38,415 nucleotides of DNA from a virus. Below are positions 6,331 through 35,425 of the stretch, piece after piece (within the stretch, counting starts at the first letter, position 1; the number at the start of each line of letters is the position of its first letter). The DNA lies in the IMG/VR virus record IMGVR_UViG_3300030117_007434, positions 1-38,415 of that record, one strand, 5' to 3'. The notes beneath the pieces are model-generated. The model did not search any database, was not told the origin of the DNA, and saw only the letters and a program-made list of their open reading frames with translations. The position numbers and the translations under genes were made by a program.

Positions 6331-6510
6331 TTATGCGGTTTCGCTTTCAGTTTCTGGTACTGTAAAAGTAGGCGGGTTGATAACCACAACCTCATCATTT
6401 TCGACTTTTAGTTCCCAGCTTTCTAACAGCGGAACAATATCTGTTTCTTCCAGCAAACATTTTTGCAAAGTCATTAGTAAAGCGCCAACGGCTTGATTTG
6501 ATAGTTTCAT
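6331..6510 (-). CDS. Small conserved-looking phage protein, function unknown
   Basis: A 59-residue protein starting MKLSNQAVGALL and ending at a TAA one base before the zinc-ribbon start. The ATG at 6508-6510 forms an ATGA overlap with the stop of the HAD gene and has GGAGG eight bases upstream. A TTG start at 6525 would place the Shine-Dalgarno inside the gene and is rejected. The sequence has an N-terminal helix, a short beta segment (WELKVENDEVVVINPP) and a Thr/Glu-rich tail. No family is recognised. Confidence 0.75.
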   Translation of the reverse strand: MKLSNQAVGALLMTLQKCLLEETDIVPLLESWELKVENDEVVVINPPTFTVPETESETA

Positions 6511-14016: not shown

Positions 14017-14017
14017 C

Positions 14018-14860: not shown

Positions 14861-15831
14861 TATTTATCCTTGGTCCCTTCCTTAATCAACTCTGCCAATT
14901 CTAAAGAATCCTGACTAAGATGCAGCGAAGAATTAAAATGTGGTCCTTGATATTTGATACTATATGTGTGAGACTTTCTAGTGTATTGAGGTGTTACCAC
15001 CAATAGTTTATCGCTAGCTTCATAGGTAAAGTCCAACTCTGTCATAGCCAACATGTCTTCATGTATCTTTTCACCGGGTCTCATATTAACAATAGTGTAT
15101 TTAATATCTTCTGTTTTACACAATACTTTTAACGAATCCAAAACTGTCTGTAAATCATATGATTTGATCTTTGGAATAAATACTTCTCCACCCTGTGCCA
15201 AATCAAGTGCCCCTAATACCGTATCCACAGCGTCATCTAGAGTAAACAAAAATCGGGAACATTCTAGGTCTGTTACTGGAACTACTTTGCTGGACTTAAT
15301 CAGGTCCATCCAGAGAGGAATAAAAGATCCCCTACTAGCGATCACGTTTCCGTATCTTACGCTTGAGAAAATAGTGTTGTCAGAATAGTAATCAAAGTTC
15401 GTAAAGACTCTTTCTGCAATAAACTTACTAGACCCATATACGTTTACTGGTAAACAAGCTTTGTCAGTTGATATAAGAATACATTTTTCAACGTCTGTTT
15501 TTAGTGCCGCAGTGGCAACATTCTGAGAGCCAATGACATTTGTCTTTACACACTCATCAGGATGAAACTCCATGTCGTCCACTCTTTTTAAAGCGGCGGC
15601 GTGAATAACGTAATCGGGTCTGTGGATGCGAAACGTAGTAGAAAGCTTATCAAGATCTCTTACATCTCCTACAACTCTAATTATGTCTTTGTCTTGCCCA
15701 AAGTATAATGCTTGTTTGCCCTCATCTCGACTGTAAACGATTATTTGCCAGCCAAGACACTTTATTCTTTTTATAAGAGCCCTACCCAGGGAGCCTGTGC
15801 CACCTGTAATGAGAACTTTTTTGGCACTCAT
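14860..15831 (-). CDS. UDP-GlcNAc 4,6-dehydratase-like enzyme (PseB/FlaA1/CapD type)
   Basis: A 323-residue soluble extended SDR with VLITGGTGSLGRALI (nucleotide loop), VIHAAALKRVDDMEFHP, ISTDKACLPVNVYGSSK (catalytic region near residues 119-135), and SVRYGNVIASRGSFIPLW. The AALKRV--ME--P-E and YGNV--SRGSVIP strings are hallmarks of PseB/FlaA1-type dehydratases, which convert UDP-GlcNAc to UDP-4-keto-6-deoxy sugars, the first step to pseudaminic and related acids. The start has GAGGG four bases upstream. It lacks the membrane region of full-length CapD/WbpM. Which 5-epimer it makes cannot be told from sequence alone. Confidence 0.87.
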   Translation of the reverse strand: MSAKKVLITGGTGSLGRALIKRIKCLGWQIIVYSRDEGKQALYFGQDKDIIRVVGDVRDLDKLSTTFRIHRPDYVIHAAALKRVDDMEFHPDECVKTNVIGSQNVATAALKTDVEKCILISTDKACLPVNVYGSSKFIAERVFTNFDYYSDNTIFSSVRYGNVIASRGSFIPLWMDLIKSSKVVPVTDLECSRFLFTLDDAVDTVLGALDLAQGGEVFIPKIKSYDLQTVLDSLKVLCKTEDIKYTIVNMRPGEKIHEDMLAMTELDFTYEASDKLLVVTPQYTRKSHTYSIKYQGPHFNSSLHLSQDSLELAELIKEGTKDK

Positions 15832-16797
15832 TTATCCCTCTACCTCGTTCTTCACATATTCCTTGACACCATTATACACATTATATTCGCTGTTTTCAGA
15901 TAGAACACTAGTTTCGGTTTCAAAGGTTGAAGTAAGGTAATCCCAGAAAACTACGGCAGCCTCTTCATACTTTATGGTGTTGTAGTACTCAGGTAAGCTC
16001 TTTGTTTTTTCAAACCCATGTTTATCTTCTTTCTTTTGTCGATGCCCATCAAAACCAATAACATCAACACTCTTTGCGCCTAGACAGTTTGCTAGCACTA
16101 CGGCTCTAGAAGCAAAACCTAGTCTTGAAAAATACCTAGTTAAATATAGGAAAGTGTTTGTGTCATTTGTCTTAGTAAACTCATCGATAATTTGGATAGT
16201 TAACTTATGTGAATGTTCAAAACCAATAAGAGTTTCATCTCTTTTAATTCTTTGAACAAGCTCTGGGTCTGCAAGGTCTGTACCCTGACCTACTAAGGCA
16301 ATGTCAACTTTTACATCTTTTAATTTTTCGCTCTTGAAATAAGAGTTGCAACTAATGACAATATCATAATCTTTTACTTTATCAAGATCTAGATCGTCTA
16401 AAGTAGGACCGCCACCAAGGACTAAGACACTTGCGTTTTTAACTTTAGCTAAAACATCATTTTCGGTGTAAACGATTTCTTCATCAACTTTGATGTCGCC
16501 ATAATCTAAAGACCTGTTGCCAAAATAATTGTTAAAAAAAGTGTTGGCAAAATAGTCTTGCCAAACTGCCCTTGTATGGTTGAAGTTGTACCAGCCGCCA
16601 GACCATGGGCTCGATGCCCATTGTGGATCAAACCGAATGGTGTGCCCAAAAAACTCACCTGTCTCATTGTTTTGCCAAATACTTGTATGATCAGTATGAG
16701 TGCTTTTGTAATGAAATAGCTTATTAAGATCATCGATTGAGGAAACGTTTTCCTCTTGGTTAACGTCTCTATAAACACAGTTATACTTTTCCCACAT
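15832..16797 (-). CDS. DUF115/Maf-like Rossmann protein, paralogue 2
   Basis: A 321-residue protein with the same core order as the gene at 10024: VLVLGGGPTLDDLDL, YDIVISCNSYFKSEKLKDVKVDIALVG, then SRAVVLANCLGAKSVDVIGFDG and a late FWDYL. The N-terminal 120 residues are Trp/Asn/Phe-rich and differ from paralogue 1 apart from scattered aromatic positions. The GGGPTL loop and the C-N-x-Y-F motif resemble DUF115/MptE-like domains. It lies between the 4,6-dehydratase and the second NeuB gene, with an ATG following GAGG by seven bases. A glycosyltransferase role with a nonulosonate donor is inferred from context; a kinase-like MptE role is the alternative. Confidence 0.65.
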   Translation of the reverse strand: MWEKYNCVYRDVNQEENVSSIDDLNKLFHYKSTHTDHTSIWQNNETGEFFGHTIRFDPQWASSPWSGGWYNFNHTRAVWQDYFANTFFNNYFGNRSLDYGDIKVDEEIVYTENDVLAKVKNASVLVLGGGPTLDDLDLDKVKDYDIVISCNSYFKSEKLKDVKVDIALVGQGTDLADPELVQRIKRDETLIGFEHSHKLTIQIIDEFTKTNDTNTFLYLTRYFSRLGFASRAVVLANCLGAKSVDVIGFDGHRQKKEDKHGFEKTKSLPEYYNTIKYEEAAVVFWDYLTSTFETETSVLSENSEYNVYNGVKEYVKNEVEG

Positions 16798-17631
16798 TTA
16801 ACAACCTCTCAATTTCTTTCTGATTGGAAGCTCGCCCTCGGTTACTCTTTTTCTTCCGTCACCATACGCTGACTCTAGTTCACGAACTCCTCTGACAAGT
16901 TTGATTAGACCTTGTGGCTCAACAGAAGCCAGGTGGTCAGACCCCCACATAGTTCTATCTAGTGTGATGTGTCGCTCAAGAATACTAGCACCTAAATAGA
17001 CTGCTGCTACAGTGGTCCCAAGTCTAAACTCATGCCCGCTATATCCAACCTCACATTGGTACTTCTCTTTTAGCACTGGGATGCAAGATAGATTCAAGTC
17101 CTCCAAAGGTGCTGGGTATGTCGAATTACAGTGCAACAAAGAGAAAGGAGTATTTGTTTCATTCATCCATTGAACTGCTTGATCGATCTCTTCTAAGGTG
17201 CTCATCCCAGTTGAGAAAATAATCTTCTTACCTGTTGCAGCCGAAGCTTTCATAAGCTCTTCGTTTGTGATCATAGCCGAAGGGATTTTGATAAAGGGAA
17301 TATCATACCCCATCAAAAAGTTCAAGCTATCTAAATCCCAAGGGGAGGCAGACCAAGCGATATTTTTATCCCGACAATATTGGTCGATAATATCATATTC
17401 TCTTTTTTCAAACTCTACCTTGTATTTGTAATCTAGATAAGTCATCTTACCCCAAGGCGTATCTCGCATCACCGATTTTTGATGCTCGGGAACGCAAACG
17501 TCCGGGTTTCTTTTTTGAAACTTCACAGCATCACACCCTGCTACTGCTGCTACGTCAATAAGTTTTTTTGCTGTTTCTAGACTACCGTTGTGGTTAATGC
17601 CGATCTCGGCGATAATATATGTTGGCTTCAT
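16798..17631 (-). CDS. NeuB-family nonulosonate synthase lacking the SAF domain
   Basis: A 277-residue NeuB-type TIM-barrel protein: YIIAEIGINHNG at the start (with the usual Glu), DAVKFQKRNPD, the FIKIPSAM block, LLHCNSTYP, a metal His in GYSGHEF and the LERHITLD Glu/His pair. It ends soon after the barrel, so the C-terminal SAF domain present in the gene at 12934 and in typical synthases (about 340-350 residues) is absent. The ATG has GAGG five bases upstream. It may act alone, with another partner, or form a mixed dimer in which the other NeuB supplies the SAF cap; the last is a guess. All main metal-binding motifs are kept, so it does not look degraded. Confidence 0.87.
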   Translation of the reverse strand: MKPTYIIAEIGINHNGSLETAKKLIDVAAVAGCDAVKFQKRNPDVCVPEHQKSVMRDTPWGKMTYLDYKYKVEFEKREYDIIDQYCRDKNIAWSASPWDLDSLNFLMGYDIPFIKIPSAMITNEELMKASAATGKKIIFSTGMSTLEEIDQAVQWMNETNTPFSLLHCNSTYPAPLEDLNLSCIPVLKEKYQCEVGYSGHEFRLGTTVAAVYLGASILERHITLDRTMWGSDHLASVEPQGLIKLVRGVRELESAYGDGRKRVTEGELPIRKKLRGC

Positions 17632-17640
17632 ACTTTCCTC

Positions 17641-19719
17641 TTATGCTAAGATTTTTCTAGGGATATCATTGTGTACATGAGATCCTTCACTACCAATATA
17701 CAGGTTAACTCCTTTTTCTTTAAGCCATTTATATGCGTCTCTACTGGCTTCAATGTTTTTTACAATCTCATCCTTCTTCATTGGGTCTGGCTTCCTAAGA
17801 ACCTTGTCGCTGTCCTCATAGAAATGATGTGATGTTGTGGTGCCAGGATTTTCCATATCCCACCCGATCGTATAAATATTTTGCACACCTAGGTGCAGAG
17901 CAGTGTGCAGGACAGTTTCATACATCATGCCCGGTCCCCAGGGTCTGTAGATTGTCTTATCCAAAGTATAGTCATCAAAGTTTCTAGAGTTACACAATGC
18001 GTTCATATAATTCTTGTCGTCTGGGATAAAGAAAAAGATGTCAAATTCTTGTTTTACAGTCCACAGACCACGAGATGTTGCAGCGATATTCTCTGCCGAT
18101 GAGCCGATTACCAGAGGTCTACTCTTCGTATACTCATAGGCTTGCACATTGTTAGAGTTGAACATATGAATGTCAACTACTTCTGGAGCATAGTTATATG
18201 CCTGTTTTAATGCAATGACTAATTTATCTTTTAGTTTTTCTCTTAGAAACTCTGGGGTGTAATTTTTCAAAGATGGACCACACCCCAGAATATAACAATC
18301 CTCACCAGCAAACTGTCCAGTTAGTTTTCCAACTTTACTAGCGATAATATCTTTTGTTGCAACCTCAGCGGGAGCTATAGATGATAGGTTCCATTTTAAA
18401 GATGCAATCTTCTCTTTAAACACAGACTCTGACTTGTTGGGGAACATGTCTTGAGCCACTGGCTGTAACTCCTTACACTCTTCCAGCAAGATGCTATAAA
18501 AATCTTTTCCAACTTTTTCTTCGCTAAAACCACAACTATTAAGCCAGTCCTGTGCTTCTTGTCCGAATTGAGATAGCTTGCCTTTTTTCCATAGATTATA
18601 TGCTTTTCTAAGTTGAAGCCTAGCACTATTAACAGAGGGCTCAAACCAGTCCAAATCAGAGTGAAGTTCTGGTGATGAATGGCAAGGTTCCCAAAAACCA
18701 TCAACGTAAAACGAGCTTTCCTCATTTGTAAAGTCAAGATACGCACTGGCTTTAGGCACCATCACTGGTTTCTTCTTATCGATAGCCTCCGCAACAGTCA
18801 ACCCAAAGCCCTCTCCCCTTGTCATTAACGCAAAAAGATCAGCCTGGTCGTATAGCCAAGAAATATTTTCGCTTGGTAAAAGGTCACAGATCAATGCTAT
18901 TTTTGCTTTTGACTCTTTAGTCTCTGGTAAAAATACCTTGCTTTTAATTTGAGAAATCTGAGACCCAATGTGTTGAGCTTGCTTTTCAAGGGGGATTTGC
19001 TCTAGGAAATCATGCATTACGTTCAGATAAGTTTTGATAACTAAAACAGTATCCTCTTGTTTTCCAAACTCCATATTATAGGCTTCTACCAATTTGTCAA
19101 AACCTTTTCTTGGAATCCACTGTGACATCGAAAATACCACGAACTTATCTTTTAGTACTTGTTCAATATTTTTAATTGGGGTAGGTTTTACATTTTTAAA
19201 ATCAACAACGTGTGGCAATTTGTATGTTTTAATTTGTGACGCTTCCTCTAGCGACCACTTGTTAAAATTACAAGGCATTATCACTGCATCTGTTTTAAGC
19301 ATGTCATACATTTTCAACCACGCCTCTGGTGGTTGCTTTGTTTCCCAAACAGTCAAATTGATATTTTTTGATGCCCCTTTAAGAACCTTTGTAAAGGTTT
19401 TCCAACAATGATCCGCTGGATAAAGACCAGACAGGGTGTACATTGGAGCCGGTAAATGCCAGACCACAACATATGGTTCAGAGCAATATTTCTCTATGTC
19501 AAGTTCTGATTCAAACTCATATTTTGAAATAATAGATTCCTCGTTGTGAGCTAGTCTTTTTACAGATGTATTCTCTGCATTAATATTGTAAACTTTTAAA
19601 TCAAAACTGTCCGGGTTGTTTTGGAGATAATTTTCCATTGCCCTCAAATAACCTCTGGCAGCAACAGCGTAACCACAAGCATCCCTAAATTGAGAGACAT
19701 ATACCACCCTAGGTTTCAT
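17641..19719 (-). CDS. Fusion of GT4 glycosyltransferase and DUF115-like Rossmann domain
   Basis: A 692-residue two-domain protein. Residues 1 to about 420 form a GT-B glycosyltransferase of the GT4 kind: VYVSQFRDACGYAVAARGY, then VFSMSQWIPRKGFDKLVEAY and the donor-site motif GEGFGLTVAEA near residue 300. After a linker, residues from about 465 onward carry EDCYILGCGPSLKNY and, later, NIYTIGWDMENPG, resembling the DUF115-like paralogues in this island but diverged. The ATG at 19717-19719 forms an ATGA overlap with the upstream GT4 gene; a TTG three bases earlier is possible. The fusion suggests one protein adding two sugars in succession, or linking sugar transfer to a scaffold; both are inference. 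Confidence 0.8.
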   Translation of the reverse strand: MKPRVVYVSQFRDACGYAVAARGYLRAMENYLQNNPDSFDLKVYNINAENTSVKRLAHNEESIISKYEFESELDIEKYCSEPYVVVWHLPAPMYTLSGLYPADHCWKTFTKVLKGASKNINLTVWETKQPPEAWLKMYDMLKTDAVIMPCNFNKWSLEEASQIKTYKLPHVVDFKNVKPTPIKNIEQVLKDKFVVFSMSQWIPRKGFDKLVEAYNMEFGKQEDTVLVIKTYLNVMHDFLEQIPLEKQAQHIGSQISQIKSKVFLPETKESKAKIALICDLLPSENISWLYDQADLFALMTRGEGFGLTVAEAIDKKKPVMVPKASAYLDFTNEESSFYVDGFWEPCHSSPELHSDLDWFEPSVNSARLQLRKAYNLWKKGKLSQFGQEAQDWLNSCGFSEEKVGKDFYSILLEECKELQPVAQDMFPNKSESVFKEKIASLKWNLSSIAPAEVATKDIIASKVGKLTGQFAGEDCYILGCGPSLKNYTPEFLREKLKDKLVIALKQAYNYAPEVVDIHMFNSNNVQAYEYTKSRPLVIGSSAENIAATSRGLWTVKQEFDIFFFIPDDKNYMNALCNSRNFDDYTLDKTIYRPWGPGMMYETVLHTALHLGVQNIYTIGWDMENPGTTTSHHFYEDSDKVLRKPDPMKKDEIVKNIEASRDAYKWLKEKGVNLYIGSEGSHVHNDIPRKILA

Positions 19720-20990
19720 CAAAGCACCATAACCTTATCGGTATCTACAGTATCTTGGGTTTGTTCACCTGTTGTCGAGAATTTCTCTACAGCAGCAACC
19801 ATGTCGGAATACTTATCTTCCATCTTAAAAGCATCCTTAATATGAGACTGTAGCTGTGTTGCCAGTTTCTCTTTGGCGGGGTAAGCCTCATAAACACTTC
19901 GCATTGCTTTTTGAAATTTATCTTTCTTAGGGAAGCACCAGTTTGAATCCGAACTAATAACCCCATCCCAGTGAGCCTCCTTGGGCACTGGCTTAATGTC
20001 AAATGCAACCTTCTCAAACAAAGGTTTGATAGTGGTCTTTTTACTCTTTGCATTTACGACTGGCGCATACAAGAAATCAACGTGACCTGACCAAGCAGGT
20101 GCAACGACCGGGAGACCTGAGTAGGCTGCCTCAAAGATTGGCAAACCAAAACCCTCGCCGTGAGTTGCGGTTACATATGCCTTAACCTTTGGATCGGTAT
20201 AAAGTGCGTGAACTTCATCATCAGACATATTGCCGTGGATCATATGCACCTTACACTTTCTGTCTTCCCCGAAAGGTTTTAAAACAGACTCAATCGAGTT
20301 TCTGAGTTTTACTCTGTCAATCTGAGAGTTGTTGGCAATATTTGCTTTTACAACAAACCCAACTTCATCATTGTGAAATTCTTCTGCAAACCATTTAATC
20401 ATCGGGGCTAGATTTTTTCTTGGACCCATCTGTGCTACTGTCAAGAAATTAAAGTCATATTTTAACTTTAAATCAATGTTCGCAGGATTAACATTTTTTA
20501 CACCATAATGGACGACTTCTACAGGCGTATTGCAAACCAACTTTTGAACAGCTTGACCAGTTTCATCTTGAAGTGTGTAGGCACTCCCAACAAAACCTGA
20601 TCTGGCATGGTTCGAGGTTACAATCACACCATCCATCTCATTAGCTTTTTGTAACCAAATCGGCGCAACACGATCTGTTTCAATGCCGGCACAAACACCA
20701 ATGTTAACTTTCCCCACTTGTTTCCACTCATTAGGGATGGTTACCTGCATACACACATCGTACTTATAATCAGGTTGGTTTTGTTGCATTACTGCAAACT
20801 TCTGAATCAGGGAGTCAATATACTTCCTATAATCTGTGTCTTCAAAGATCCAGTTAGTATGTCCCCAATTTAGTGGCTCAACATATACATCATACTCCGG
20901 GTTTGAGGTTAGAGCATTTAGAACAAATCTAGCGTGCTCCCCATAACCACTACGAGTTAACACAGGTGCTCTTAATAAAATCTTTTTCAT
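19719..20990 (-). CDS. GT4-like glycosyltransferase
   Basis: A 423-residue GT-B-fold protein with the N-terminal RAPVLTRSGYGEHARFV segment, an interdomain FLTVAQMGPRKNL block, and the E-x7-E type donor-site motif HGEGFGLPIFEAAYSGLPVV (about residues 275-294). It has no signal peptide or membrane span, so it acts in the cytoplasm on a nucleotide-activated sugar. It overlaps both neighbouring GT genes by four bases or fewer. The DFNFLTVAQ-GPRKN wording is typical of phage-type GT4 proteins. The last 20 residues are Thr/Asp-rich and probably flexible. The acceptor is unknown. Confidence 0.85.
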   Translation of the reverse strand: MKKILLRAPVLTRSGYGEHARFVLNALTSNPEYDVYVEPLNWGHTNWIFEDTDYRKYIDSLIQKFAVMQQNQPDYKYDVCMQVTIPNEWKQVGKVNIGVCAGIETDRVAPIWLQKANEMDGVIVTSNHARSGFVGSAYTLQDETGQAVQKLVCNTPVEVVHYGVKNVNPANIDLKLKYDFNFLTVAQMGPRKNLAPMIKWFAEEFHNDEVGFVVKANIANNSQIDRVKLRNSIESVLKPFGEDRKCKVHMIHGNMSDDEVHALYTDPKVKAYVTATHGEGFGLPIFEAAYSGLPVVAPAWSGHVDFLYAPVVNAKSKKTTIKPLFEKVAFDIKPVPKEAHWDGVISSDSNWCFPKKDKFQKAMRSVYEAYPAKEKLATQLQSHIKDAFKMEDKYSDMVAAVEKFSTTGEQTQDTVDTDKVMVL

Positions 20991-22258
20991 AGTTCAATGC
21001 TCTCCCAAGAGTTGTAACCTTTTCTGTTTTCCCAAGATCCACACTCTTCGTGAATCTCTGTCATAACATCAACCCAGGTTTTCCTAAAGTTGTCAAAGTT
21101 ATAATTTTTCATAACGTGTTCACGACCTTTTTTACCAAGCTTTGCCCGGTCTTTTGGGTCCATCTCATACATTTTTACCAAGGCATCTACAAAGTCGTCT
21201 TCATTGATTCGGTCCTCGTAGATATAAGGAACAGTCAACGAACCAATAACAGCTTTAGAGCTAGGTTCGATTCCGATACCAAACCAATCTTTTCCGTCTG
21301 TAACTTGCTCTTGTAACCCACCTGTCATATTAACAATAATAGGGGTTTCGCAAGACAAAGACTCAAGAGTAGCCAATCCAAAACCCTCAGCATCTGCAAT
21401 ATTCAGTGTGCAATCTGCCATATTGTAAAAAGCAGCAAGATCTGATGGGCTCACTTTCTTTTCGTTAAATTGGACTTGACCTTTATTTAACCCAAGTTGA
21501 TCACATAGAAACTGCAATGGTTGCCCATGGTGATCATTAATATCAGTGTGCATCAACAGCGTGGCATTTTCGTGCCCCACTCGGTCTAGAAAGTTCTTCC
21601 ACCAAAACAACAAGGTTCCACTTTGCTTTCTTCTAGCATTACGGTTATTCCAGAAACAGACAAATTTATCTTTCATACCGTTCTGTTCTCTGATGTTTTT
21701 TATGTTTGCAAGAAGTTCTGCGTCTTTAAACTTAGTAAATACACTAGAGTCAACGGCGTGTGGGATATACTTTTCTTTAACATTAGATGTGACACCTTGC
21801 ACGATTTTACTCGTCACCTTTGAGATACTAGCGATATAATCATTTGACTCATAGAATGGTTTGTTAAACTTTGGTAGTGGGAAATTATCCCAGACATGAT
21901 AATAAATCATTGGGACAAGGGGGCGAACCTCATCCTCCATTTTCCAAAGCCATTCATAAAAACGAGGATCTGTCATAAAATACAGAATATCAGGTCTTTC
22001 CTGTCGGATTACTGATCTAACAATTTCAGCATCGCCGTAATCCTTTACTGGCAGGATTCGCCATTTATCTTTATATTCTTCAGTTCTTTGCTCACGGTAA
22101 TCAGCGTGCTGGATCGCACCAGCCAAACTAATTACCTCAAAGTTACCAGTATCTAACAAAGCCCGAATAACATACTGGGTTTGGGTTCCAACCCCCGAGG
22201 GCAATAGTGGATGATCACTAATTGTTAGAACCTTGATTCTCTTTTTTTCTTCTGTCAA
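20987..22258 (-). CDS. GT4-like glycosyltransferase, first gene of the sugar island
   Basis: A 423-residue GT-B protein with VLTISDHPLLPSGVGTQTQYV near the N-terminus, FVCFWNNRNARRKQSG at the interdomain region and DAEGFGLATLESLSCETP near residue 288 as the donor-site motif. The start is TTG, clearly chosen by a near-perfect Shine-Dalgarno (AGGAGG at 22267-22272, eight bases upstream). It is the first glycan gene after the nuclease gene in transcription order and overlaps the next GT by four bases. It probably transfers a hexose or similar sugar in the cytoplasm; the substrate is not readable from sequence. Confidence 0.85.
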   Translation of the reverse strand: MTEEKKRIKVLTISDHPLLPSGVGTQTQYVIRALLDTGNFEVISLAGAIQHADYREQRTEEYKDKWRILPVKDYGDAEIVRSVIRQERPDILYFMTDPRFYEWLWKMEDEVRPLVPMIYYHVWDNFPLPKFNKPFYESNDYIASISKVTSKIVQGVTSNVKEKYIPHAVDSSVFTKFKDAELLANIKNIREQNGMKDKFVCFWNNRNARRKQSGTLLFWWKNFLDRVGHENATLLMHTDINDHHGQPLQFLCDQLGLNKGQVQFNEKKVSPSDLAAFYNMADCTLNIADAEGFGLATLESLSCETPIIVNMTGGLQEQVTDGKDWFGIGIEPSSKAVIGSLTVPYIYEDRINEDDFVDALVKMYEMDPKDRAKLGKKGREHVMKNYNFDNFRKTWVDVMTEIHEECGSWENRKGYNSWESIEL

Positions 22259-23114: not shown

Positions 23115-23798
23115 TTAATTAGAGTACTTTGAATGTAGTTCGTCTATTTTTTCGTATACTACCGGACAACGATCATAAAGTCTTTCTCTGTTGCCCAAAT
23201 AGTACTCCTGAAAAGCGCAAGCAAAATATTCTCTCAAAGAGGTAGCTCCATAGGGGCGCACAAAATCGTATTGCATCAAATAGGTTATGGTTTTGTACCC
23301 TACTCTTTTGTGTAAAAAATCATCAAATGCTTTATCATACTTCAGTTTGTCAAAGTCATAATCTTTGACATCATAACCTTCAGTAGCTAACTCGTACTTT
23401 AACTCTCTTCTTTTCTTGCGAAATTCATTAATGATCTTCTGATCTTCGTAAAGTTCTGATAATGCCACAACCTCTAAATGGTGCGCTGTCTCATGGATAA
23501 TGTCGTCGATCATATCCTCCTCATTGTCTTGATCAGGGGATACATATAACGTCCCATCCTGATACATAGCGTTGAACTCCTTGTTAGCAAACTTAGGATG
23601 ATCATCCACCTGTATCTTAGTTATACCACGATAGTAGTTCCTTGGCAAGAGCCCACTTATCATATGTAAAACTTTTGCAAGCGATACATCATCGGGTAGT
23701 GGCTTTACTATTTGAACCTCAACATTGCCAAAAGCGATCACTTCTTCTCGCTCTATATTGCTGGTTTCTAAAATGTATTTACGCACACCATCAGTCAT
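23115..23798 (-). CDS. Zincin-like metallopeptidase-related protein
   Basis: A 227-residue protein with an HExxHH motif (IIHETAHHLEV, H102, E103, H106, H107) after an NGTLYVSPDQ-like strand, and a downstream helix (REYFACAFQEYYLG, about residue 195) whose Glu could be the third zinc ligand. This is the layout of gluzincin-type metallopeptidases. No signal peptide is seen, so it should act inside the cell. The ATG has GGAG five bases upstream and overlaps the PhoH stop by four bases. The target is unknown: prohead or virion protein maturation and attack on host proteins are both possible. The fold call rests on the motif and helix positions. Confidence 0.7.
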   Translation of the reverse strand: MTDGVRKYILETSNIEREEVIAFGNVEVQIVKPLPDDVSLAKVLHMISGLLPRNYYRGITKIQVDDHPKFANKEFNAMYQDGTLYVSPDQDNEEDMIDDIIHETAHHLEVVALSELYEDQKIINEFRKKRRELKYELATEGYDVKDYDFDKLKYDKAFDDFLHKRVGYKTITYLMQYDFVRPYGATSLREYFACAFQEYYLGNRERLYDRCPVVYEKIDELHSKYSN

Positions 23799-25087
23799 AA
23801 TATCTCCGCAGCCAAGGATGCTAGTTTAGATCTCTCACCTTTAGTTAGTGTCACATGTCCGGCAATCTCATAATCTTTAAATTTTTCTACTGCGTGAGTT
23901 AGTCCATTGGATTCTGCGTCAACATACGAATTATCGATTTGTTGAATATCGCCTGTTAGAATCAATTTAGTACCGTGCCCCACTCTTGTTATTATAGTCT
24001 TTAATTCGTGGGCTGTTAAGTTCTGTGCTTCGTCCACGATCATAAAAGCGTTTGAAATCGAACGACCACGGATAAATGTCATAGCCTCTATTTCTATTTC
24101 GCCTTGATCCATATGCATGTCCAAAGCCATTTTATCACCAAATAGAAATTCTAAATTGTCTCTAAGCGGAGCAATCCACGGCATCATCTTCTCTTCTAAC
24201 GAACCCGGCAGGAAACCAATATCCCTACCCATTGGCTGTACTGGTCTTGTTATAATTAACTTATCATAGTTTGAACTATTGATAACTTGCTCTAATCCAC
24301 AAGCAGCAGCCAGTAATGTTTTCCCAGTGCCAGCTTTGCCAGTGAGGGATACTATTTGAACTGAATCATCAAAAAGCAAATCCATCGCAAACTGCTGCTC
24401 TTTGTTTTTTGCCATCAGCCCCCATATTTTTTCTTGTTTATATATTTTCTTAAGAGGCTTATCATCTGCCACAAATCTACACAAAGCAGAGTTCTTACTG
24501 TTTGTTGTGGATTTAAGAATCAGAAACTGATTGGGATACTGTTTTTTACTTTGTTCTGGTAAGTAAATCTCGTCACCATCATAAAATGCTTGTAGTACAT
24601 CCTCTGGCACTTCTATCACATCAATCCCATCAAACAATTTATCTACTGACTTGACAGCTTTGTTAGGTTGGTAATCCTCACACTTAAGCCCAAAAGAATC
24701 ACACTTGACTCTCATGTTTAAATCACGAGACACAACAATTACGTCGTTACCCTCCCTCATTAATTTTATGGCGCAGGCTAAGATTTTATTATCTGTTTCT
24801 GTTTCCTTAAGCCCAGGTGGCAAGTATTCACTACTATAATGGGTGACAAATATCTTACCTTTACCTCGCCCAAGTCCGACCCCTTTGAGGAGCGAGCCTT
24901 TAGTTCTGAGTTTGTCTAACACCCTGTTTGTTGATCTTGCATTTAGACCAGCAGTGTCCTGCCTGTGTTTATGTTTATCGATCTCATCCAATACCATTGA
25001 CGGTATAGCAATTGATGCCTTTCCGTAATTGTAAATTGAAGAAACTTCAGTTAAGTAAACATTTGTATCTAGTAAATATACTTTCAT
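23795..25087 (-). CDS. PIN-PhoH fusion (PhoH2/YlaK type)
   Basis: A 430-residue protein that likely couples an RNase to an ATP-driven RNA helicase. Residues 1-140 are a PIN domain (YLLDTNVYL at the start, MVLDEIDKHK, the ETETDNKILA acidic block and VVSRDLNMR). A PhoH ATPase follows, with Walker A TGKAGTGKT near residue 250 and Walker B FMIVDEAQN near 347. This two-domain layout is that of PhoH2/YlaK proteins. The ATG at 25085-25087 is used because the family starts M-x-x-YLLDTN and AAGGG lies just upstream; a longer reading to 25111 has no Shine-Dalgarno. It follows the tmRNA terminator, so it probably has its own promoter. PhoH genes are frequent in marine phages; their role there is unsettled. 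Confidence 0.88.
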   Translation of the reverse strand: MKVYLLDTNVYLTEVSSIYNYGKASIAIPSMVLDEIDKHKHRQDTAGLNARSTNRVLDKLRTKGSLLKGVGLGRGKGKIFVTHYSSEYLPPGLKETETDNKILACAIKLMREGNDVIVVSRDLNMRVKCDSFGLKCEDYQPNKAVKSVDKLFDGIDVIEVPEDVLQAFYDGDEIYLPEQSKKQYPNQFLILKSTTNSKNSALCRFVADDKPLKKIYKQEKIWGLMAKNKEQQFAMDLLFDDSVQIVSLTGKAGTGKTLLAAACGLEQVINSSNYDKLIITRPVQPMGRDIGFLPGSLEEKMMPWIAPLRDNLEFLFGDKMALDMHMDQGEIEIEAMTFIRGRSISNAFMIVDEAQNLTAHELKTIITRVGHGTKLILTGDIQQIDNSYVDAESNGLTHAVEKFKDYEIAGHVTLTKGERSKLASLAAEIL

Positions 25088-25116
25088 ATTTTCCCTTGTC
25101 TTAGGGGTCATGATAA

Positions 25117-25128: not shown

Positions 25129-25156
25129 AAAAAATAAAGCCGCCCGAAGGCGGCTT
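25127..25156 (-). terminator. Rho-independent terminator after tmRNA
   Basis: On the minus strand AAGCCGCC and GGCGGCTT pair as an 8-base GC-rich stem around a TTCG tetraloop. It is followed by TTTATTTTTT, a good U-tract. It begins six bases after the tmRNA CCA end and should stop the tmRNA transcript. Confidence 0.92.
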
Positions 25157-25161
25157 ATTAT

Positions 25162-25485
25162 TGGTGGAGGTAGGGAGAATCGAACTCCCGTCTTGCCCAG
25201 TTCCATAGAGAGGTCGTTCACAAGGTTAGGTCTGTTTTTATCGTCAGACAGCCCACTTGACTAGAGAGTTTTATTATGGTCAAAACAATCAAAAACACAT
25301 AAGGGACAAATATACGGCTTTCTGTTTTTTGGCTGCCGCCGCCTCAAGTCAAGTCAGGTTATTAAGCTGCTTGTGCTAATTGAAAATCGTCGTTTGCGAT
25401 TAGAAGTTAAGCGTTTTTAGTGAGCCACGCTTCCCTCACCCTTGCACCTTTTCTACTTTCCTATCAATCGATACCGTTTACCCCC
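25162..25485 (-). ncRNA. ssrA: Transfer-messenger RNA (tmRNA)
   Basis: A complete one-piece tmRNA of 324 bases. The 5' end GGGGGTA pairs with TACCTCC at the 3' end (seven pairs, one G-U), followed by A and an encoded CCA. The T arm is GGGAG-TTCGATT-CTCCC. After the 5' GTAAACGG tRNA-like part comes the reading frame at 25397-25362: GCA AAC GAC GAT TTT CAA TTA GCA CAA GCA GCT TAA, giving the tag ANDDFQLAQAA. Pseudoknot-forming segments (CGGCGGCAGCC and others) follow. It rescues stalled ribosomes with SmpB, and no smpB is seen here, so the host would supply it. It is single-copy, lies between the acidic virion-associated gene and phoH, and is closed by its own terminator. Confidence 0.95.
25362..25397 (-). 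other. tmRNA tag reading frame (ANDDFQLAQAA)
   Basis: The resume codon is GCA at 25395-25397 and the stop is TAA at 25362-25364. The tag keeps the AND start and AA end of common bacterial tags, but the third residue from the end is Gln where Leu is usual (LAA). Leu at that position is part of the ClpX recognition signal in E. coli. Confidence 0.88.
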
Positions 25486-25504
25486 TTAAATTACTACCGT
25501 TTAC
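25472..25504. repeat. Direct repeat TACCGTTTAC around the tmRNA 5' end
   Basis: The 10-mer TACCGTTTAC occurs at 25472-25481, inside the tmRNA 5' end, and again at 25495-25504, just upstream of it, 23 bases apart. A 10-base palindrome TACTATAGTA follows at 25502-25511. The second copy may be a relic of duplication or a binding site. Confidence 0.6.
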
Positions 25505-25600
25505 TATAGTAGTTCTAATTTACTATCGGTTTCTTTTTTTTCTTTCGTAGGCTTAGTATAATTGTAATTTAAATTAAGTAAAGTAAAAAATGAATTTATT
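25486..25600 (-). promoter_or_regulatory. A+T-rich leader/promoter region of the tmRNA
   Basis: These 115 bases hold no gene. They carry the tmRNA leader and presumably its promoter. TAGTAAA occurs twice on the minus strand here and again as TAGTAAAC in the PhoH leader. I cannot name clear -10 and -35 boxes, so the exact promoter is not called. No strong hairpin for terminating the upstream gene is visible. Confidence 0.5.
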
Positions 25601-26437
25601 TTATAGCCCTAAAGCATCTAAGGCTTCTTCACCACCTTCTTCGCCTTCTTCTGCTGGTTCTTCTTCTGCTGCTTCTTCGCCACCTTCATCTTCGGCAGCC
25701 TCTTCGCCTTCTTCGCCCTCTTCCGCTTTTGCCTCTTCATATTCTGGGGTGGTGGTTTGAGGTAAGGTCTCTTGTAGCTCATCTTCAAACTTATCAAAAT
25801 ACAACATTAGATTAGTTAGCAGATAATCGTAGAATTGCTTCTTATCCTCATCATTGCCTAACATGGTGTAAGCATCAACAATTTGTTTTTCAATCCGATC
25901 AAAATCACTGGATGCAAAGTTTCTACCGGTTTCGTCTTTACCTTCTAAACCAAACTCTTCACCCTCTGCTGCTTCATCACCCTCGATATCGATAAACTCA
26001 CCTTCTACCTCTTCCTCTTCACCTTCTTCATCTCCAATATTAATTGCAATCTTTTCCAAAAGCACACGATCATAAAAATATTCCATGCTCTCTTTTTTAG
26101 CTGCATCCTCTTGTGCGTCCACTGGTGCAATGGTGCGCTTAACTGCATTGACAATATGGGCTCGGTAAGAGTCTCTTTGTTCCTTGTCTGTCGTTAGGTT
26201 TTTATAGCCATCCTCTAAGGTTGGTACAATCTTTTTTAACAAATCAGCTAAAACATTAATTCCGGTAGACTCAGCAGGAACCTCATCGGTAGCTTCAGCT
26301 TCAATCAGAAGCTTACGAATCGCTTTGCGAAATTGCTGTTCCTCAATTACTCTTTGTGTATCCTTAGTAATCAGTCTCTTGCGGATATACTCACGCAAAA
26401 GCTGTTCTTGTAGAAATTGATCTCTGTTAATACTCAT
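25601..26437 (-). CDS. Acidic protein of the structural block, function unknown
   Basis: A 278-residue, very acidic protein. The N-terminal 50 residues are basic and helical (QLLREYIRKRLIT, then FRKAIRKLLIEAEA). The middle is a mixed helical domain with an acidic insert (about residues 135-160). The last 50 residues are nearly all Glu, Ala and Gly. It starts eight bases after the ligase-like gene stop and ends before the tmRNA leader. A basic head with an acidic tail could suit a scaffold, internal head protein or assembly factor, but no family is recognised and the role is open. Confidence 0.75.
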   Translation of the reverse strand: MSINRDQFLQEQLLREYIRKRLITKDTQRVIEEQQFRKAIRKLLIEAEATDEVPAESTGINVLADLLKKIVPTLEDGYKNLTTDKEQRDSYRAHIVNAVKRTIAPVDAQEDAAKKESMEYFYDRVLLEKIAINIGDEEGEEEEVEGEFIDIEGDEAAEGEEFGLEGKDETGRNFASSDFDRIEKQIVDAYTMLGNDEDKKQFYDYLLTNLMLYFDKFEDELQETLPQTTTPEYEEAKAEEGEEGEEAAEDEGGEEAAEEEPAEEGEEGGEEALDALGL

Positions 26438-28764: not shown

Positions 28765-31700
28765 CTACCAAATAAACCAGTTAGCACCGTCCGAAACACA
28801 GTTTACAGATGCGAACGGCGATTGAATTGTATAAGTAGTTGAACCATCGATTGTATCCCCAGCGGTCGCAGATAAAGTAATCGTATCCGCCGTTGGACCA
28901 AAGTGTGCGTTGCCTGCTTTGAACACAAACCAAGTTCCGGCAGGATGGTTACCCGGCAGCTTCACTGTGGTGGTACCAGATAAGATATAAAACTGAGGTG
29001 CCTTATAAGAATCTAGAGTATCCGTATTAACAGTCACTGCTGTCGAGGATGATAGACCCAACCGAACGTTACCACTCACCTTAAGCATCGCCTCGATATT
29101 AGCATCATGGGCTTTTAGATCCCTTTGACTGTGGATAGAGGTCGATCCTGAAAAGATTGTACCCTTAACTTCTACACCAGCGGTGATTGCTTCACTGCTG
29201 TTTGTGGTGGTGAACTTGAGATAAGAGTTGCCAGCTTCAGTGATATTGAGAGCATCTGCCAAGTTGTCTGTCAGGGTCATCTTGTTTTTAGTAGTATTAC
29301 CTTCAAACTGAATATCAAGTCCCGTAGCTGCTGCATCAGGCTGTATGACATCGGCAGAAATAGTTCCTACATTTTCAATATCGTTATCACCCAAATCAAG
29401 CTTATAACCAAGAACGATTTCTTCCGATCCATCAGTAGAAACAATCTTGACGATCTCATTACTACCTTCTTTGACAGTAAGAGCAGCAGCTAGGTCATCT
29501 GCAATGGTAATCAATCCTGTACCAGTATTGGCACCACTAAAGTCAATGTTTAATCCATTAGCAGCATCTGCTACGCTAACACTGTCAGCGTCAATATCTC
29601 CAACATTAGCAATGTTGCCATCGTTAACGTCAACACTACCAACCGATATACTAGCACCGTTGATAGCACCAGATACATGAAGTGTTTCACCAACTCTTGC
29701 TTGACCTGCTACCTGCAAGTTTTCTGAACCTGAAATAGCCCCCGCAACAGTTAAGGCGTGTGTCGGTACAACATTAATGCCGACAGAACCTGATCGGCTA
29801 ATATGGAAAATATTATCTAGATCACCATAGTCAACTCTCATCATTGGTGCATTTGCGGATGATCCTTGGTCATCTCCACCGCCACTGATATGCAAGAGTG
29901 CCACTGGGTTAATCGTACCATTGAAATCTTGACCAAGACCAACAAGCCCATCGTCGGTGATGGTCATCTTAACTCTGTTATTTGTTACAAGCTGCAATGG
30001 AGACCCAGCAGTTCGGGCACCCACAATCATGGCGTTAGAGGCAGCGTTTGCTAAGAAGACACCAGCGGGATCAGCAGCAGCGTTCCCGTTAAGACCAACA
30101 AGACCCCTTGTCGCACCACCATCTTGTGTCATAAATAAATAAGCGTTATGGGTTTCAGTGGCATTATCTGTGTCTGCTTCCAATCTAATCGCTGCGTCAT
30201 CGGCAGATCTAATGTGTAAGTGCGAACCTGTGGTACCAAGAGTGGTGCCTGCAATATCGCCAATACCAACCGACGAACTGACTACTAGAGTTTCGCCTAC
30301 ACGCATTTCATTACTTGTTTGAATTGGGAAAGAACTGGAAAAGTCTGCCGTTAGTCGTATGGGCGCTTGACTAATAATCGTTCCGTTTGCAATAAACATC
30401 GTGCTATTAGCGCCATTGGAAATATTAAAATACATGGCATAACTCGTCTGTGGAGCCATATTCCAAGATTGAAACGATCGCCCATTAGCATCTTGCACAA
30501 GATTGTAAGATGGTTGTTGACCGTTGTTGTCTTTCGCAGTGGAAAACTGTACAAGTGTTGCTGCACCTTCATCAGCACCTGAAACTGCTAGGTATGTAGA
30601 TGCACTGTGGGCTGCAATAGCGGCGATATTACCAATATGGACCCCGCCGGAACCGCTTGATGCAATAAGCCCAGTGGTAGTAATCTTCTTGCTTACTTGA
30701 ATTTCTTCCCCACTATTTGTGGTTACAAACTTAATATATGAGTTGCTACCTTCAGTAATGTCTAGGGCACTAGCTAAATTATCTTTTAGTGTAAGTTTAT
30801 TTGTGCCGGTATTACCGTCAAAGTTTATGTTTAGTCCGGCTGCATCCGCATCTGACTGAACTGTATCAACCTCTAGAGTTCCAACATTGGTAACATCTCC
30901 ATCGTTAACATTAAGACTATTCAGAGAGAGTGTACCTGAGACTAATAAATCCCCGCCAACCCGAACATCAGCGGCAGCCTGAATATTAGTAGACGCCGAT
31001 AAATCACCAACAATAGAAAGTGAAGCCGCTGGTGAAGAAGTTCCAATACCCACTTGTCCTGTACCGGAGACGTATAAGACATTATCAAGATCTTCTCCAT
31101 CACATCGGAGGATTTCTTTTTCACCAGTATTAGCTACAACGTGCAAGCGTGCAGCAGGACTACCAGTGTTGATACCTACGTTACTATTAGAAGCACCGGC
31201 TATAACAAGAGCGTTTGAATTGGCGACTCTTAAACTAACATCCTGTCCAGCCTTAGCGTTTACGACAGTTGTACCATTAGCTCGCTGCTGAAGGGCGAAG
31301 TCGGTCGTATTAGCATTATCTCTGTGGGCGAAGACGGCGTAATCTGAGGTTGTGCCATCATAGCCAATATGAGCACGACCGATTCGTGCGGACACATCTG
31401 AGTTATCACCAACATCAAGTGCTTCTTGGGGAGTCTCTGTTAAAATACCAACCCGCCCAGAGCCTGTAACAAGCATGATGGTTCCGGTATTATTAGTAAG
31501 AGATCCACTTATCATAGCCTCGGCGTGGTCAATTCTGAGCATCACGGCACCGCCTGTGTCAATACCCTTTGTTGAAGAAGAAATGTGAAGACTAGCTTTC
31601 TTTTTGTTGTTCGCCATGTGAGCAGCGTTTGAGCTACCAATGTTAACACCATCGGCACCAGCGTGGAACTGGACCGCTCGACTACCGCCATACGATGTAC

Positions 31701-33297
31701 CTTCAAAGTTGTATACATTATGGTTACTATCATAATAAAAAGTAGCTTTTCTGTTACTGGTATTAGTACCCCAAGTAAGTTGACCAGCCTTTTGGTTTGG
31801 AAACAAGAACTGAATACCAACGTGGTCGTTGTTTTCTAGCGTCAGTGTAGTATTAATAACAGGGTCTATCCCATTGTCTGACCCCGCTCCGCCACCAAGA
31901 ATGTGAAGAGCATTAGTGTTAGCTGAATCTGATCTTGGATCGTCTGTGCCGATACCTACAATACCACTACCTGTCACAAAGAGGACGGGCACACTACCAG
32001 TTAAGTTATGATGATCAATTCTAAGCAGTGGGTATGACGATCCACTTGCAACCGAAGAGGAAATAAACAAGGACCCACTAATGCTTACATCATTAATAAA
32101 GTTTGCATCGCCCGAGAACGAGGCGTTAAGAATATTACCTGAAACGGATAAGTCCTCACCAACTCGTAATTCATTAGATGTTTGGATAGGTGCAGAAGAG
32201 GATAAGAGTCCTGCAAGAGTTACTGAACCAGTCTGTTTTAAAATACCCCTGTTGACTAATACTTCATCTACAGTTAAACCTCTAGCAACATTTACTTGTT
32301 GCATACTGCCTGTGCCTAACGTAAAGGCACCCGATACGGTTAGACCGCCTGCAATATGTATATCTTTGGCTGCTTCAATATCACCACCAGCAGTTAATGC
32401 GCCGGAGACTTTTACAGTCGATTTGTTTACGACTCCACCGAGAAAAACAGAGTCACCAGATGCAGACAAGTGCCCTCTACTGCCACCTAAAAGCTGAAGT
32501 TCCTCAGCCCTTAAATATGTACCCGATACAGTTACGGAGCCACCTACATGAATATCTCTGTTGTAGTCTGAGTCAGACTGAAATGTCATTTTGTTGCCGC
32601 CAGGGGCAAAAGTAAATGTGTTCGCCCTAACAGATCCTGATACGTCTAAGTTTTCGCCAACTCTCATATCACCGGCTGTTTGAAAATGTGTCGATCCTGA
32701 TAAAACGCCACCGGCAAACAAAGCACCCGAAACATGAAGCGTTTCGCCTACACGCATTTGATCACTTGTTTGAATTGGTGCTGAAGATGAGAAAAGCCCA
32801 ACCTGAAGACTGCCAGAAACTGTTAGTCCTCCTACAACGTGTACATCTTTAGCCGCTTGAACATCCCCATTGGCGTTTAATGTGGTGGCTAGTGTCGTTG
32901 CTCCCGAGACGTTTAACGTATCTTTTAATATTGTTGATCCCGAAGCCACTATAGTAGATGCTGATAAAACACCGCCAAAAGTAGATGATCCACTTAATAA
33001 AAGATTACCTTTTATTTGTGCCTGATTTGTTACTACCAGTGGACCCGAGGATGACAACTCGCCTTCAACTTTAAGATTTGTTGCTGAATCTACAGTAACA
33101 GTGGTGCCCTTAACTAAAAGATCACCAGTAATTTCAGCGTTACCAGTTACTCTTAATCCGGGTCCTGTTGCTGGACCCATAACTTCTAAAACAGCGCCTG
33201 GGTGATTGCCTGCGCCTGATACTTGTAGGTTTCCTGTAACTTCGGCTGACCCACTAAATGGAAATACGCCTACGTTACCAATAACAAATCTTGTCAT
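28765..33297 (-). CDS. Giant repeat-built tail fibre / receptor-binding protein
   Basis: A 1510-residue Ser/Thr/Gly-rich protein made of short beta repeats. Variants of RVGETLHVSG, QTSNEMRVGE and VSGSLQV recur through the first 430 residues and again later, as expected for triple beta-helix fibres. Four copies of an LRIDH-x-n-VTGSG-VGIGT type module fill the middle. Three copies of a 77-78-residue module lie in the last half, and the C-terminal tip ends TIDGSTTYTIQSPFASVNCVSDGANWFIW, a typical fibre-tip ending. GAGG lies nine bases before the ATG, and the candidate late promoter at 33319 lies just upstream. It should bind the host surface. Its Ser/Thr content makes it a possible acceptor for the phage's own glycosylation genes, an untested idea. 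Confidence 0.88.
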   Translation of the reverse strand: MTRFVIGNVGVFPFSGSAEVTGNLQVSGAGNHPGAVLEVMGPATGPGLRVTGNAEITGDLLVKGTTVTVDSATNLKVEGELSSSGPLVVTNQAQIKGNLLLSGSSTFGGVLSASTIVASGSTILKDTLNVSGATTLATTLNANGDVQAAKDVHVVGGLTVSGSLQVGLFSSSAPIQTSDQMRVGETLHVSGALFAGGVLSGSTHFQTAGDMRVGENLDVSGSVRANTFTFAPGGNKMTFQSDSDYNRDIHVGGSVTVSGTYLRAEELQLLGGSRGHLSASGDSVFLGGVVNKSTVKVSGALTAGGDIEAAKDIHIAGGLTVSGAFTLGTGSMQQVNVARGLTVDEVLVNRGILKQTGSVTLAGLLSSSAPIQTSNELRVGEDLSVSGNILNASFSGDANFINDVSISGSLFISSSVASGSSYPLLRIDHHNLTGSVPVLFVTGSGIVGIGTDDPRSDSANTNALHILGGGAGSDNGIDPVINTTLTLENNDHVGIQFLFPNQKAGQLTWGTNTSNRKATFYYDSNHNVYNFEGTSYGGSRAVQFHAGADGVNIGSSNAAHMANNKKKASLHISSSTKGIDTGGAVMLRIDHAEAMISGSLTNNTGTIMLVTGSGRVGILTETPQEALDVGDNSDVSARIGRAHIGYDGTTSDYAVFAHRDNANTTDFALQQRANGTTVVNAKAGQDVSLRVANSNALVIAGASNSNVGINTGSPAARLHVVANTGEKEILRCDGEDLDNVLYVSGTGQVGIGTSSPAASLSIVGDLSASTNIQAAADVRVGGDLLVSGTLSLNSLNVNDGDVTNVGTLEVDTVQSDADAAGLNINFDGNTGTNKLTLKDNLASALDITEGSNSYIKFVTTNSGEEIQVSKKITTTGLIASSGSGGVHIGNIAAIAAHSASTYLAVSGADEGAATLVQFSTAKDNNGQQPSYNLVQDANGRSFQSWNMAPQTSYAMYFNISNGANSTMFIANGTIISQAPIRLTADFSSSFPIQTSNEMRVGETLVVSSSVGIGDIAGTTLGTTGSHLHIRSADDAAIRLEADTDNATETHNAYLFMTQDGGATRGLVGLNGNAAADPAGVFLANAASNAMIVGARTAGSPLQLVTNNRVKMTITDDGLVGLGQDFNGTINPVALLHISGGGDDQGSSANAPMMRVDYGDLDNIFHISRSGSVGINVVPTHALTVAGAISGSENLQVAGQARVGETLHVSGAINGASISVGSVDVNDGNIANVGDIDADSVSVADAANGLNIDFSGANTGTGLITIADDLAAALTVKEGSNEIVKIVSTDGSEEIVLGYKLDLGDNDIENVGTISADVIQPDAAATGLDIQFEGNTTKNKMTLTDNLADALNITEAGNSYLKFTTTNSSEAITAGVEVKGTIFSGSTSIHSQRDLKAHDANIEAMLKVSGNVRLGLSSSTAVTVNTDTLDSYKAPQFYILSGTTTVKLPGNHPAGTWFVFKAGNAHFGPTADTITLSATAGDTIDGSTTYTIQSPFASVNCVSDGANWFIW
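29167..29631 (-). repeat. Tandem pair of the tail-fibre module
   Basis: Two adjacent copies of a 77-78-codon module: 29398-29631 (DVNDGNIANVGD to EIVLGYKL) and 29167-29397 (DLGDNDIENVGT to ITAGVEV). Each has the order D-N-V-G, D-L-A-x-AL, EGSN or EAGN and SEE/SEA. A third copy lies at 30682-30912. Confidence 0.85.
30682..30912 (-). repeat. Separate copy of the tail-fibre module
   Basis: A 77-codon copy (NVNDGDVTNVG to EEIQVSKKI) of the module repeated at 29167-29631. About 1050 bases of other fibre sequence separate them, so the triplication is not a simple tandem array. Confidence 0.82.
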
Positions 33298-34576: not shown

Positions 34577-35425
34577 TTATTTAGGGGTTTCAGTTGTGGT
34601 CTCTGTGGTGTCAGCATTCATATTATACATCTTCCACAAATTTAGTTCGCCTCTAGCATATGCTTTAGACACGAAAACTGAGATAGATCCAAACACCGGT
34701 GATAAGCCAACTTTTTCAACTGAAGGGAAGCCTGCAAAAATGACTCCGACAATTTCGCCCTCACTGTTCAGTATAGCTGATCCACTGCTCCCCGGTTTAG
34801 TGGTAATAGTATAGGTGTCATACCCAGCCATAAAGTTACCCGAATAATAACCATCAAATGTTAAAACCATTTCGCTACCGAATAAACCATGGGGTGCTGC
34901 TAGATTATAATATTTAACCCCTCTCTTAGGAGCCTCTTTTGCGATTGGTACAGCTTTGATATTTCTTGACACACCTTTTACCTGCAACAAACATAAATCC
35001 CACCTTTTATTAATTGCCATAACTACTGCCTGATGCCGGCGACCGTGGTAGCTTATTACTTCATAAGATGTTCCGATTTTTTGAATCTCAACTCCATCAA
35101 TAATTCGTTTAGCAAACTTTCTTTCTTCGCAAGAGTGCCCTGCGGTTAAAACGTATGACACGTCTGTTGTTATTTCGCTGTGCAACACGACCATACCAGA
35201 AGAGGTTGCCGTCCACCTAGCTTTATTACATTCCTCTTTTTCGCCTTTATCGTTTGGGAGGATACAACCCTGCAAGATCATTGAATTCTTCACCAGCATG
35301 AAGGATTGTCGTGGTAGTTTTTCGACTACAGAGAGTTGCGGTCCCCCGTGAGCACAGGAGCCACATCCGATAATAAATGCCGTAAAAGTACATAACAGCA
35401 GGCGATTGACGTATTTTCCCTTCAT
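34577..35425 (-). CDS. Trypsin-like serine protease lipoprotein
   Basis: A 282-residue protein with a lipoprotein signal peptide: a hydrophobic stretch ending FIIGC, with Cys21 as the lipid site. The S1-type triad is His97 (VLTAGHSCEE), Asp143 (RWDLCLLQV) and Ser214 (TTKPGSSGSAIL), all in proper context, followed by GEIVGVIFAG. It should be anchored in the periplasm or outer membrane, where it could degrade host surface or other proteins, or act in superinfection exclusion or lysis. It is transcribed away from the plus-strand gene at 35496. No clear Shine-Dalgarno precedes the ATG. Extracytoplasmic proteases are unusual in phage genomes. Confidence 0.85.
   Translation of the reverse strand: MKGKYVNRLLLCTFTAFIIGCGSCAHGGPQLSVVEKLPRQSFMLVKNSMILQGCILPNDKGEKEECNKARWTATSSGMVVLHSEITTDVSYVLTAGHSCEERKFAKRIIDGVEIQKIGTSYEVISYHGRRHQAVVMAINKRWDLCLLQVKGVSRNIKAVPIAKEAPKRGVKYYNLAAPHGLFGSEMVLTFDGYYSGNFMAGYDTYTITTKPGSSGSAILNSEGEIVGVIFAGFPSVEKVGLSPVFGSISVFVSKAYARGELNLWKMYNMNADTTETTTETPK

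Follow-up and report, generated by a model that had tools for sequence, protein, structure and literature searches.

The window, by which we refer to the whole stretch of viral DNA analyzed (38,415 nt), encodes on its minus strand a complete one-piece tmRNA, on which ARAGORN and Rfam agree (Table 1). The original prediction, made by a model from the sequence, had claimed such a gene, with a paired acceptor, an encoded CCA and a T arm, and had proposed a covariance-model search for it. All of these parts were read in the sequence and are kept in relatives, and the search matched RF00023 to the tmRNA bases from end to end (model positions 1–374; 85 bits versus a gathering cut-off of 47; E 9e-32), a full-length match that places the gene in this family. 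According to both programs, the order of the parts is standard, not circularly permuted. The tRNA-like domain is composed of a 7-bp acceptor stem (GGGGGUA/UACCUCC) with G3.U as its third pair, the discriminator A, the encoded CCA and the T arm (GACGGGAGUUCGAUUCUCCC); the 5' and 3' ends of the RNA are GGGGGUAAACGGUAUCGAUUG and UACCUCCACCA, respectively. A G.U third acceptor pair is an established identity element for alanine. In pseudoknot 1, both helices (GUGAG/CUCAC and AAGCGU/ACGCUU) pair without a mismatch. The tag frame possesses a resume codon, a stop and small hydrophobic residues at its end (GCA AAC GAC GAU UUU CAA UUA GCA CAA GCA GCU, then UAA UAA), and ARAGORN called its product as ANDDFQLAQAA followed by two stops, exactly the tag, ending in QAA, that had been predicted; the predicted coordinates were likewise confirmed to the base.

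Table 1. Features of the tmRNA locus (positions in the window).
Feature	Position	Strand	Evidence
tmRNA (ssrA) gene, one-piece, 324 nt	25162..25485	-	ARAGORN; Rfam RF00023, 85 bits
Acceptor 5' strand GGGGGUA, G3 paired with U	25479..25485	-	Sequence; GU in 28/28 relatives
Acceptor 3' strand UACCUCC, discriminator A, CCA	25162..25172	-	Sequence
T arm	25173..25189	-	Alignment A1, columns 309-325; 5/5 pairs kept in 28/28
Pseudoknot 1	25409..25439	-	At least 99% of cells paired, 28 sequences
Tag frame ANDDFQLAQAA	25365..25397	-	ARAGORN, coding part 89-127
Tandem stops UAA UAA	25359..25364	-	Sequence
CAA codon for the antepenultimate Gln of the tag; relatives have Leu or Met here	25371..25373	-	
Helix 5, last tag codons paired with 3' flank	25350..25373	-	Structure alignment of relatives
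Tag cassette, 69 nt, exchanged as a unit among related phages	25340..25408	-	Comparison of L043, L147 and L155
phoH (PIN + PhoH ATPase, PhoH2 type), adjoins tmRNA	23795..25111	-	PF02562, PF13638; synteny
Upstream neighbor, 278 aa, function unassigned	25601..26437	-	tblastn in relatives, 48-56% identity, position kept
Intrinsic terminator 3' of tmRNA	25137..25156	-	Scan; hairpin kept in most relatives
TATAGT, possible -10 element (weak), 18 nt before mature 5' end	25503..25508	-	Sequence only

The gene had also been credited with its own terminator, and a scan located one directly after it, consisting of AAGCCGCCUUCGGGCGGCUU with a UUCG loop and a T run; two terminator-like sites were returned (shuffled mean, 0.9), the second being the plus-strand mirror of the first. 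A TTGACA-type promoter ends 7–15 nt upstream of the tmRNA in 32 of 46 relatives, as compared with a background rate of 0.5% in random 70-mers from the same contigs. This promoter is absent from the window and from its relative L043, where only the possible TATAGT element occurs. Of the neighboring genes, phoH has NCBIfam PhoH2 as its best match, but below the cut-off of that model, and its start is probably, as judged by its homologs, an internal ATG (MKVYLLDTN) at 25087, 24 nt downstream of the listed 25111. After phoH, both here (23115–23798) and in relatives (30–47% identity), lies a zinc-metallopeptidase-like gene with an HETAHH motif, whose Pfam match is below the cut-off.

In the remainder of the window, translations of genes at 6507–22258 were read as glycosyltransferase, sialic-acid-synthase-like, formyltransferase and sugar-nucleotide proteins, a block that suggests synthesis or modification of surface sugars, and the translation of 28765–33297 as a repetitive protein of 1510 aa, likely a tail-fiber or adhesin-like structural component. 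Two lipoproteins, one predicted to carry MopE metal-binding motifs and vWA (36234–37511) and the other trypsin-like (34577–35425), have counterparts in a 190-kb relative, G015; both resemble host proteins and may point to the kind of host, which, to judge from a vWA lipoprotein with MopE motifs, might be of the Myxococcota/Bdellovibrionota type. No terminase was found within the 38-kb window, nor was a close cultured relative of its phage. The phage had been described as T4-like, which may hold in a broad sense only: by terminase, the cultured phages nearest to G015 are Flavobacterium phage immuto, at 45% identity, and Microcystis phage Mel-JY01, at 44%, and T4-like cyanophages reach 33%. Neither immuto nor Mel-JY01 contains a convincing tmRNA. 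G015 also encodes a membrane metalloprotease resembling RseP (L167 6403–7206; above the cut-off of TIGR00054) and a protein with weak similarity to FtsZ/tubulin (L158 7243–8376).

The survey of related loci was seeded from the neighboring PhoH protein, not from the tag. In all 23 viral loci with a phoH identity of at least 63%, a tmRNA is located directly upstream of phoH (16 detected by ARAGORN and a further 7 by Rfam), and in most of them phoH has diverged to 63–73%. Among 57 more distant loci (phoH at most 58%; 38 checked with Rfam, the others with ARAGORN only), a tmRNA was nearby in two, with the tags ANDNVEFEYAVAA and ANDNVEFDYALAA. The gene order kept in relatives is the 278-aa gene, tmRNA, phoH, the metalloprotease-like gene and an exonuclease. 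Pattern scans of viral contigs yielded ∼40 related tmRNAs; the rest of the clade is mostly 90–93% identical to the window tmRNA, and CCTCCACCA, which supports the acceptor 3' strand, occurs in every complete relative of the main clade. Searched by blastn against 50,697 phage records, the gene gave no match at E 1e-5, and at E 10 short partial matches only, mostly to the T arm.

The conservation of structure was evaluated in 28 distinct related tmRNAs, aligned on 70 pairs (alignment A1), with one helix resolved in each of pseudoknots 3 and 4. In this alignment, 98.0% of the helix cells are paired (shuffled mean, 94.9) and in 16 pairs both partners have changed, versus a shuffled mean of 7.4; none of the 500 shuffles and none of the slid controls attained the observed covariation score. 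Kinship of sequences may alone beat shuffles without any structure, but the slid controls, which preserve relatedness, fell far below (1–5 double-change pairs). Covariation is apparent in helix 2, helix 5 and the pseudoknots; pseudoknot 1 and one helix of pseudoknot 2 are almost invariant and hence uninformative in this respect, and the outer two pairs of helix 5 are often broken in relatives. The G3.U pair is invariant, and the encoded CCA is kept. The minimum free energy of the window tmRNA as a single sequence was no better than that of shuffles (z −0.56), as expected for an RNA with pseudoknots, and was therefore kept out of the evidence; chance is excluded by the covariance score, together with the conservation and covariation in the 28 relatives.

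The tag ending varies within the same scaffold and gene position, where LAQAA, LALAA and MEMAA occur. Among 35 non-redundant phages, the antepenultimate residue is Gln in 14, Met in 13 and Leu in 7, and one phage, L197, encodes Ala-Ala alone; the resume site of its tmRNA (L197 2101–2427) reads GCA GCU UAA, followed downstream by a longer, vestigial frame that ends in a second GCAGCUUAA. The long tag is thus dispensable in at least one phage of the clade. The type of tag is almost unlinked from the neighboring gene. On the phoH tree (35 tips), 13 residue changes are needed, versus a shuffled mean of 15.6 (21 of 200 shuffles needed no more than 13), and on a tree of the tmRNA without its cassette likewise 13, versus 15.3; parts of both trees have weak support, but the starred branches alone force several changes.

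The closest relative of the window beyond its own near-identical record is L043, whose PhoH is 98.4% identical, yet which carries LAA where the window has Gln; the differences between the two tmRNAs amount to 11 of 69 positions in the cassette and 10 of 255 in the remaining RNA (Fisher p 0.001, uncorrected, for a pair picked after inspection). In L043, L147 and L155, the 69-nt cassette shows 0 differences, versus 28–41 of ∼255 positions (11–16%) outside it (p 0.001 to 5e-5, with the same reservation). Whole tmRNA genes also move between phages: the window and L136 are 98.5% identical in the tmRNA, 47% in the 60 nt upstream and 69% in phoH. The variable tag codon is part of helix 5, where its third base and the facing base change together (A-U in 15, G-C in 10 and C-G in 3 sequences), so that a new ending calls for a compensating change on the 3' side of the frame; if the whole cassette is exchanged, the codon and its partner would be swapped in one step. 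A divergent scaffold with a GGGGCCG acceptor (58–63% identity) was observed upstream of phoH in L142 (1282–1600) and L151 (6518–6836), where the tag is nevertheless ANDDFNMEMAA, as in other relatives, and is encoded by nearly identical DNA, suggesting transfer of a cassette across scaffolds. No report of tag-cassette exchange among phages was found in the largely open-access literature searched. Host matching, avoidance of a host factor and near-neutral recombination are candidate reasons for the exchange.

In our view, the gene is probably a functional ssrA of a clade of large, broadly T4-like phages, serving host-dependent trans-translation with an Ala-Ala degron, the ending of which is exchanged by recombination. 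The gene would be inherited within the clade and transcribed on its own; host RNase P would trim the RNA, AlaRS of the host would recognize the G3.U pair and attach alanine, and host SmpB would bind the product. During infection, ribosomes stalled on cut or non-stop messages would then be rescued with the addition of A+ANDDFQLAQAA, the antepenultimate Gln presumably representing one of several endings that circulate by recombination of the short tag cassette. The swapped endings among relatives lend more interest to the suggestion, made at the outset, that the tag may suit a host protease. A bolder and rather unlikely reading is that the ending is exchanged rapidly, phages with one tmRNA scaffold swapping cassettes under selection for different or rare endings by host proteases, adaptors or defenses; the tmRNA would then be a module that decides what becomes of proteins released from stalled ribosomes, perhaps in concert with a ClpP-like peptidase encoded by relatives.

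A more specific purpose, compatible with this functional ssrA, would be the release, by the phage tmRNA, of ribosomes left on the ends of mRNAs that the PIN-PhoH ribonuclease/helicase has cleaved in the infected cell. PIN-PhoH proteins have been reported as RNA helicase/RNases (PMC7824862), and the PIN acidic residues are invariant in 12 homologs; moreover, the tmRNA adjoins phoH across the clade and also in L142 and L151, although phoH there is 50% identical. A terminator separates the tmRNA from phoH, however, and the 278-aa, metalloprotease-like and exonuclease genes are equally conserved, such that adjacency may be plain synteny. A link specific to phoH is weakened by the synteny of all the neighbors, and we consider the coupling doubtful.

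In the original prediction, which argued from the part that Leu plays in the ClpX signal of E. coli, QAA in place of LAA was suggested as a way for tagged proteins to escape rapid degradation. On this reading, the degron is weakened, and tagged phage or host proteins would leave the ribosome without fast degradation by ClpXP. Gln is indeed polar, unlike the L, V, I, M or Y of most tags found, the endings of close relatives differ in a way suggestive of tuned degradability, and a change of the antepenultimate Leu raises KM modestly (Flynn 2001, as cited in PMC7652416). The main ClpX determinant, however, is Ala-Ala-COO- (Fei et al. 2020, PMC7652416), and no tag read in the relatives lacks the terminal Ala-Ala, while the phage with a 98% identical PhoH has LAA. 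In the cellular tags found, the antepenultimate residue is Y, I, V, M or L, and endings such as YAA, IAA and MAA occur. The idea that Gln at this place is foreign to cells was rejected, since AQAA ends the true alphaproteobacterial tags ANDNYAPVAQAA and ANDNFAPVAQAA (ARAGORN; Rfam alpha_tmRNA, ∼300 bits). QAA, although unusual, is therefore not without parallel in cells, and tagged proteins would by default be expected to be degraded. With its Ala-Ala carboxyl end kept, the window tag most likely still directs degradation, and a weakened degron appears unlikely.

As for the proteolytic machinery, no phage SspB or Clp ATPase C-domain was found. A ClpP-like protein (PF00574) was detected in 11 of 15 phage records searched, and in 11 of the 12 larger than 75 kb; among PDB entries it is closest to ClpP, and its Ser and His lie in corresponding motifs. 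Since PHROGs prefers a head maturation protease for this protein, its action in tag degradation is considered a possibility only. In G015, a stand-alone ClpP-like peptidase gene (L161 13253–13855) is located not far from a GroEL gene (L161 7798–9384).

SmpB was not found in 42 related contigs, which are uncultured fragments, and must therefore be supplied by the host. The same finding would agree with an RNA acting as a decoy or inhibitor by sequestering SmpB or EF-Tu of the host, for which the TLD-only RNA of mycobacteriophage DS6A (PMC4131195) provides a precedent. The DS6A-type RNA lacks a tag region, whereas that of the window is complete and conserved, with the tag frame, stops, helix 5 and pseudoknots kept and covarying in relatives; a decoy is accordingly quite improbable.

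Cells were sampled in one species-level collection, searched by pattern, and in 398 Pseudomonadota genomes, and neither a close homolog nor an identical tag was found there. The ANDDFxLAxAA frame had no match in the contigs of 84,980 species, and the nearest cellular tags found, ANDD[VLIT]ELAYAA from many Pseudomonadota genomes, belong to RNAs 45–49% identical to that of the window. A looser tag pattern, which required GCA or GCT for the second-last Ala and was blind to MEMAA tags with GCG, led to L156, without a tmRNA at the match, and to L157 (ANDDFFGSNVVAA), which is unrelated. A host tmRNA with an identical ending had been named beforehand as the sign of simple capture; cellular tags ending in AQAA do exist, which agrees with this sign in part, but not from demonstrated hosts. 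Although other phages are thought to have acquired tmRNA from their hosts (PMC9004378) and L197 has lost most of its tag, a recently captured passenger gene or a decaying copy is the least credible reading, in view of a location that is the same in all 23 relatives, even though phoH has diverged to 63–73% in most, and of the covariation and the cellular searches, by which the window tmRNA appears to be no recent host capture.

For a functional phage ssrA, the clade offers a natural experiment, in which close relatives with 98% identical PhoH have tmRNAs that differ mainly in the 69-nt tag cassette. Since the position contacted by ClpX is occupied by Q, L or M, and one phage has a two-residue tag, the need for rescue, for a tag or for a particular ending becomes testable. 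The clade thereby bears on the purpose of phage tmRNAs.

The window gene adds to the phage ssrA genes already documented. These were said to be rare, in keeping with their presence in 402 of 18,146 phage genomes, two-piece ones of marine myophages included (PMC9004378). Earlier descriptions concern mycobacteriophages (Bxz1 and Wildcat among them) as well as Bacillus phage G (PMC4131195), to which Bradyrhizobium phages have lately been added (PMC12656738). Tags made up of Ala-Ala alone have a precedent in 25 sequences (PMC11915505). The genes of the mycobacteriophages and phage G are likewise tmRNA genes carried by phages, but of other phages and hosts, whereas that of the window clade is fixed beside phoH; no report of tag cassette exchange was found for them. 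The ssrA genes of OM43 phage Melnitz and pelagiphages also represent marine myophage tmRNAs thought to be active in infection, but are two-piece and permuted, of the alphaproteobacterial type, with a glutamine riboswitch (PMC9004378), in contrast to the one-piece tmRNA of the window, which has a terminator to itself and, in relatives, a promoter as well. Among cellular tags, ANDD[VLIT]ELAYAA is nearest in sequence and length, despite the divergence of the RNA bodies, while ANDN[FY]APVAQAA (alpha_tmRNA) shares the last four residues, AQAA, but belongs to a two-piece permuted RNA. The window tmRNA most resembles the one-piece bacterial type (RF00023), with which it shares the G3.U/CCA acceptor, the T arm, pseudoknot 1, the Ala-Ala end and a helix 5 overlapping the last codons; it differs in its compactness (324 nt, versus ∼350–374 in the cells sampled), its low score (85 bits), its tag ending in LAQAA and its distance from any cellular relative sampled.
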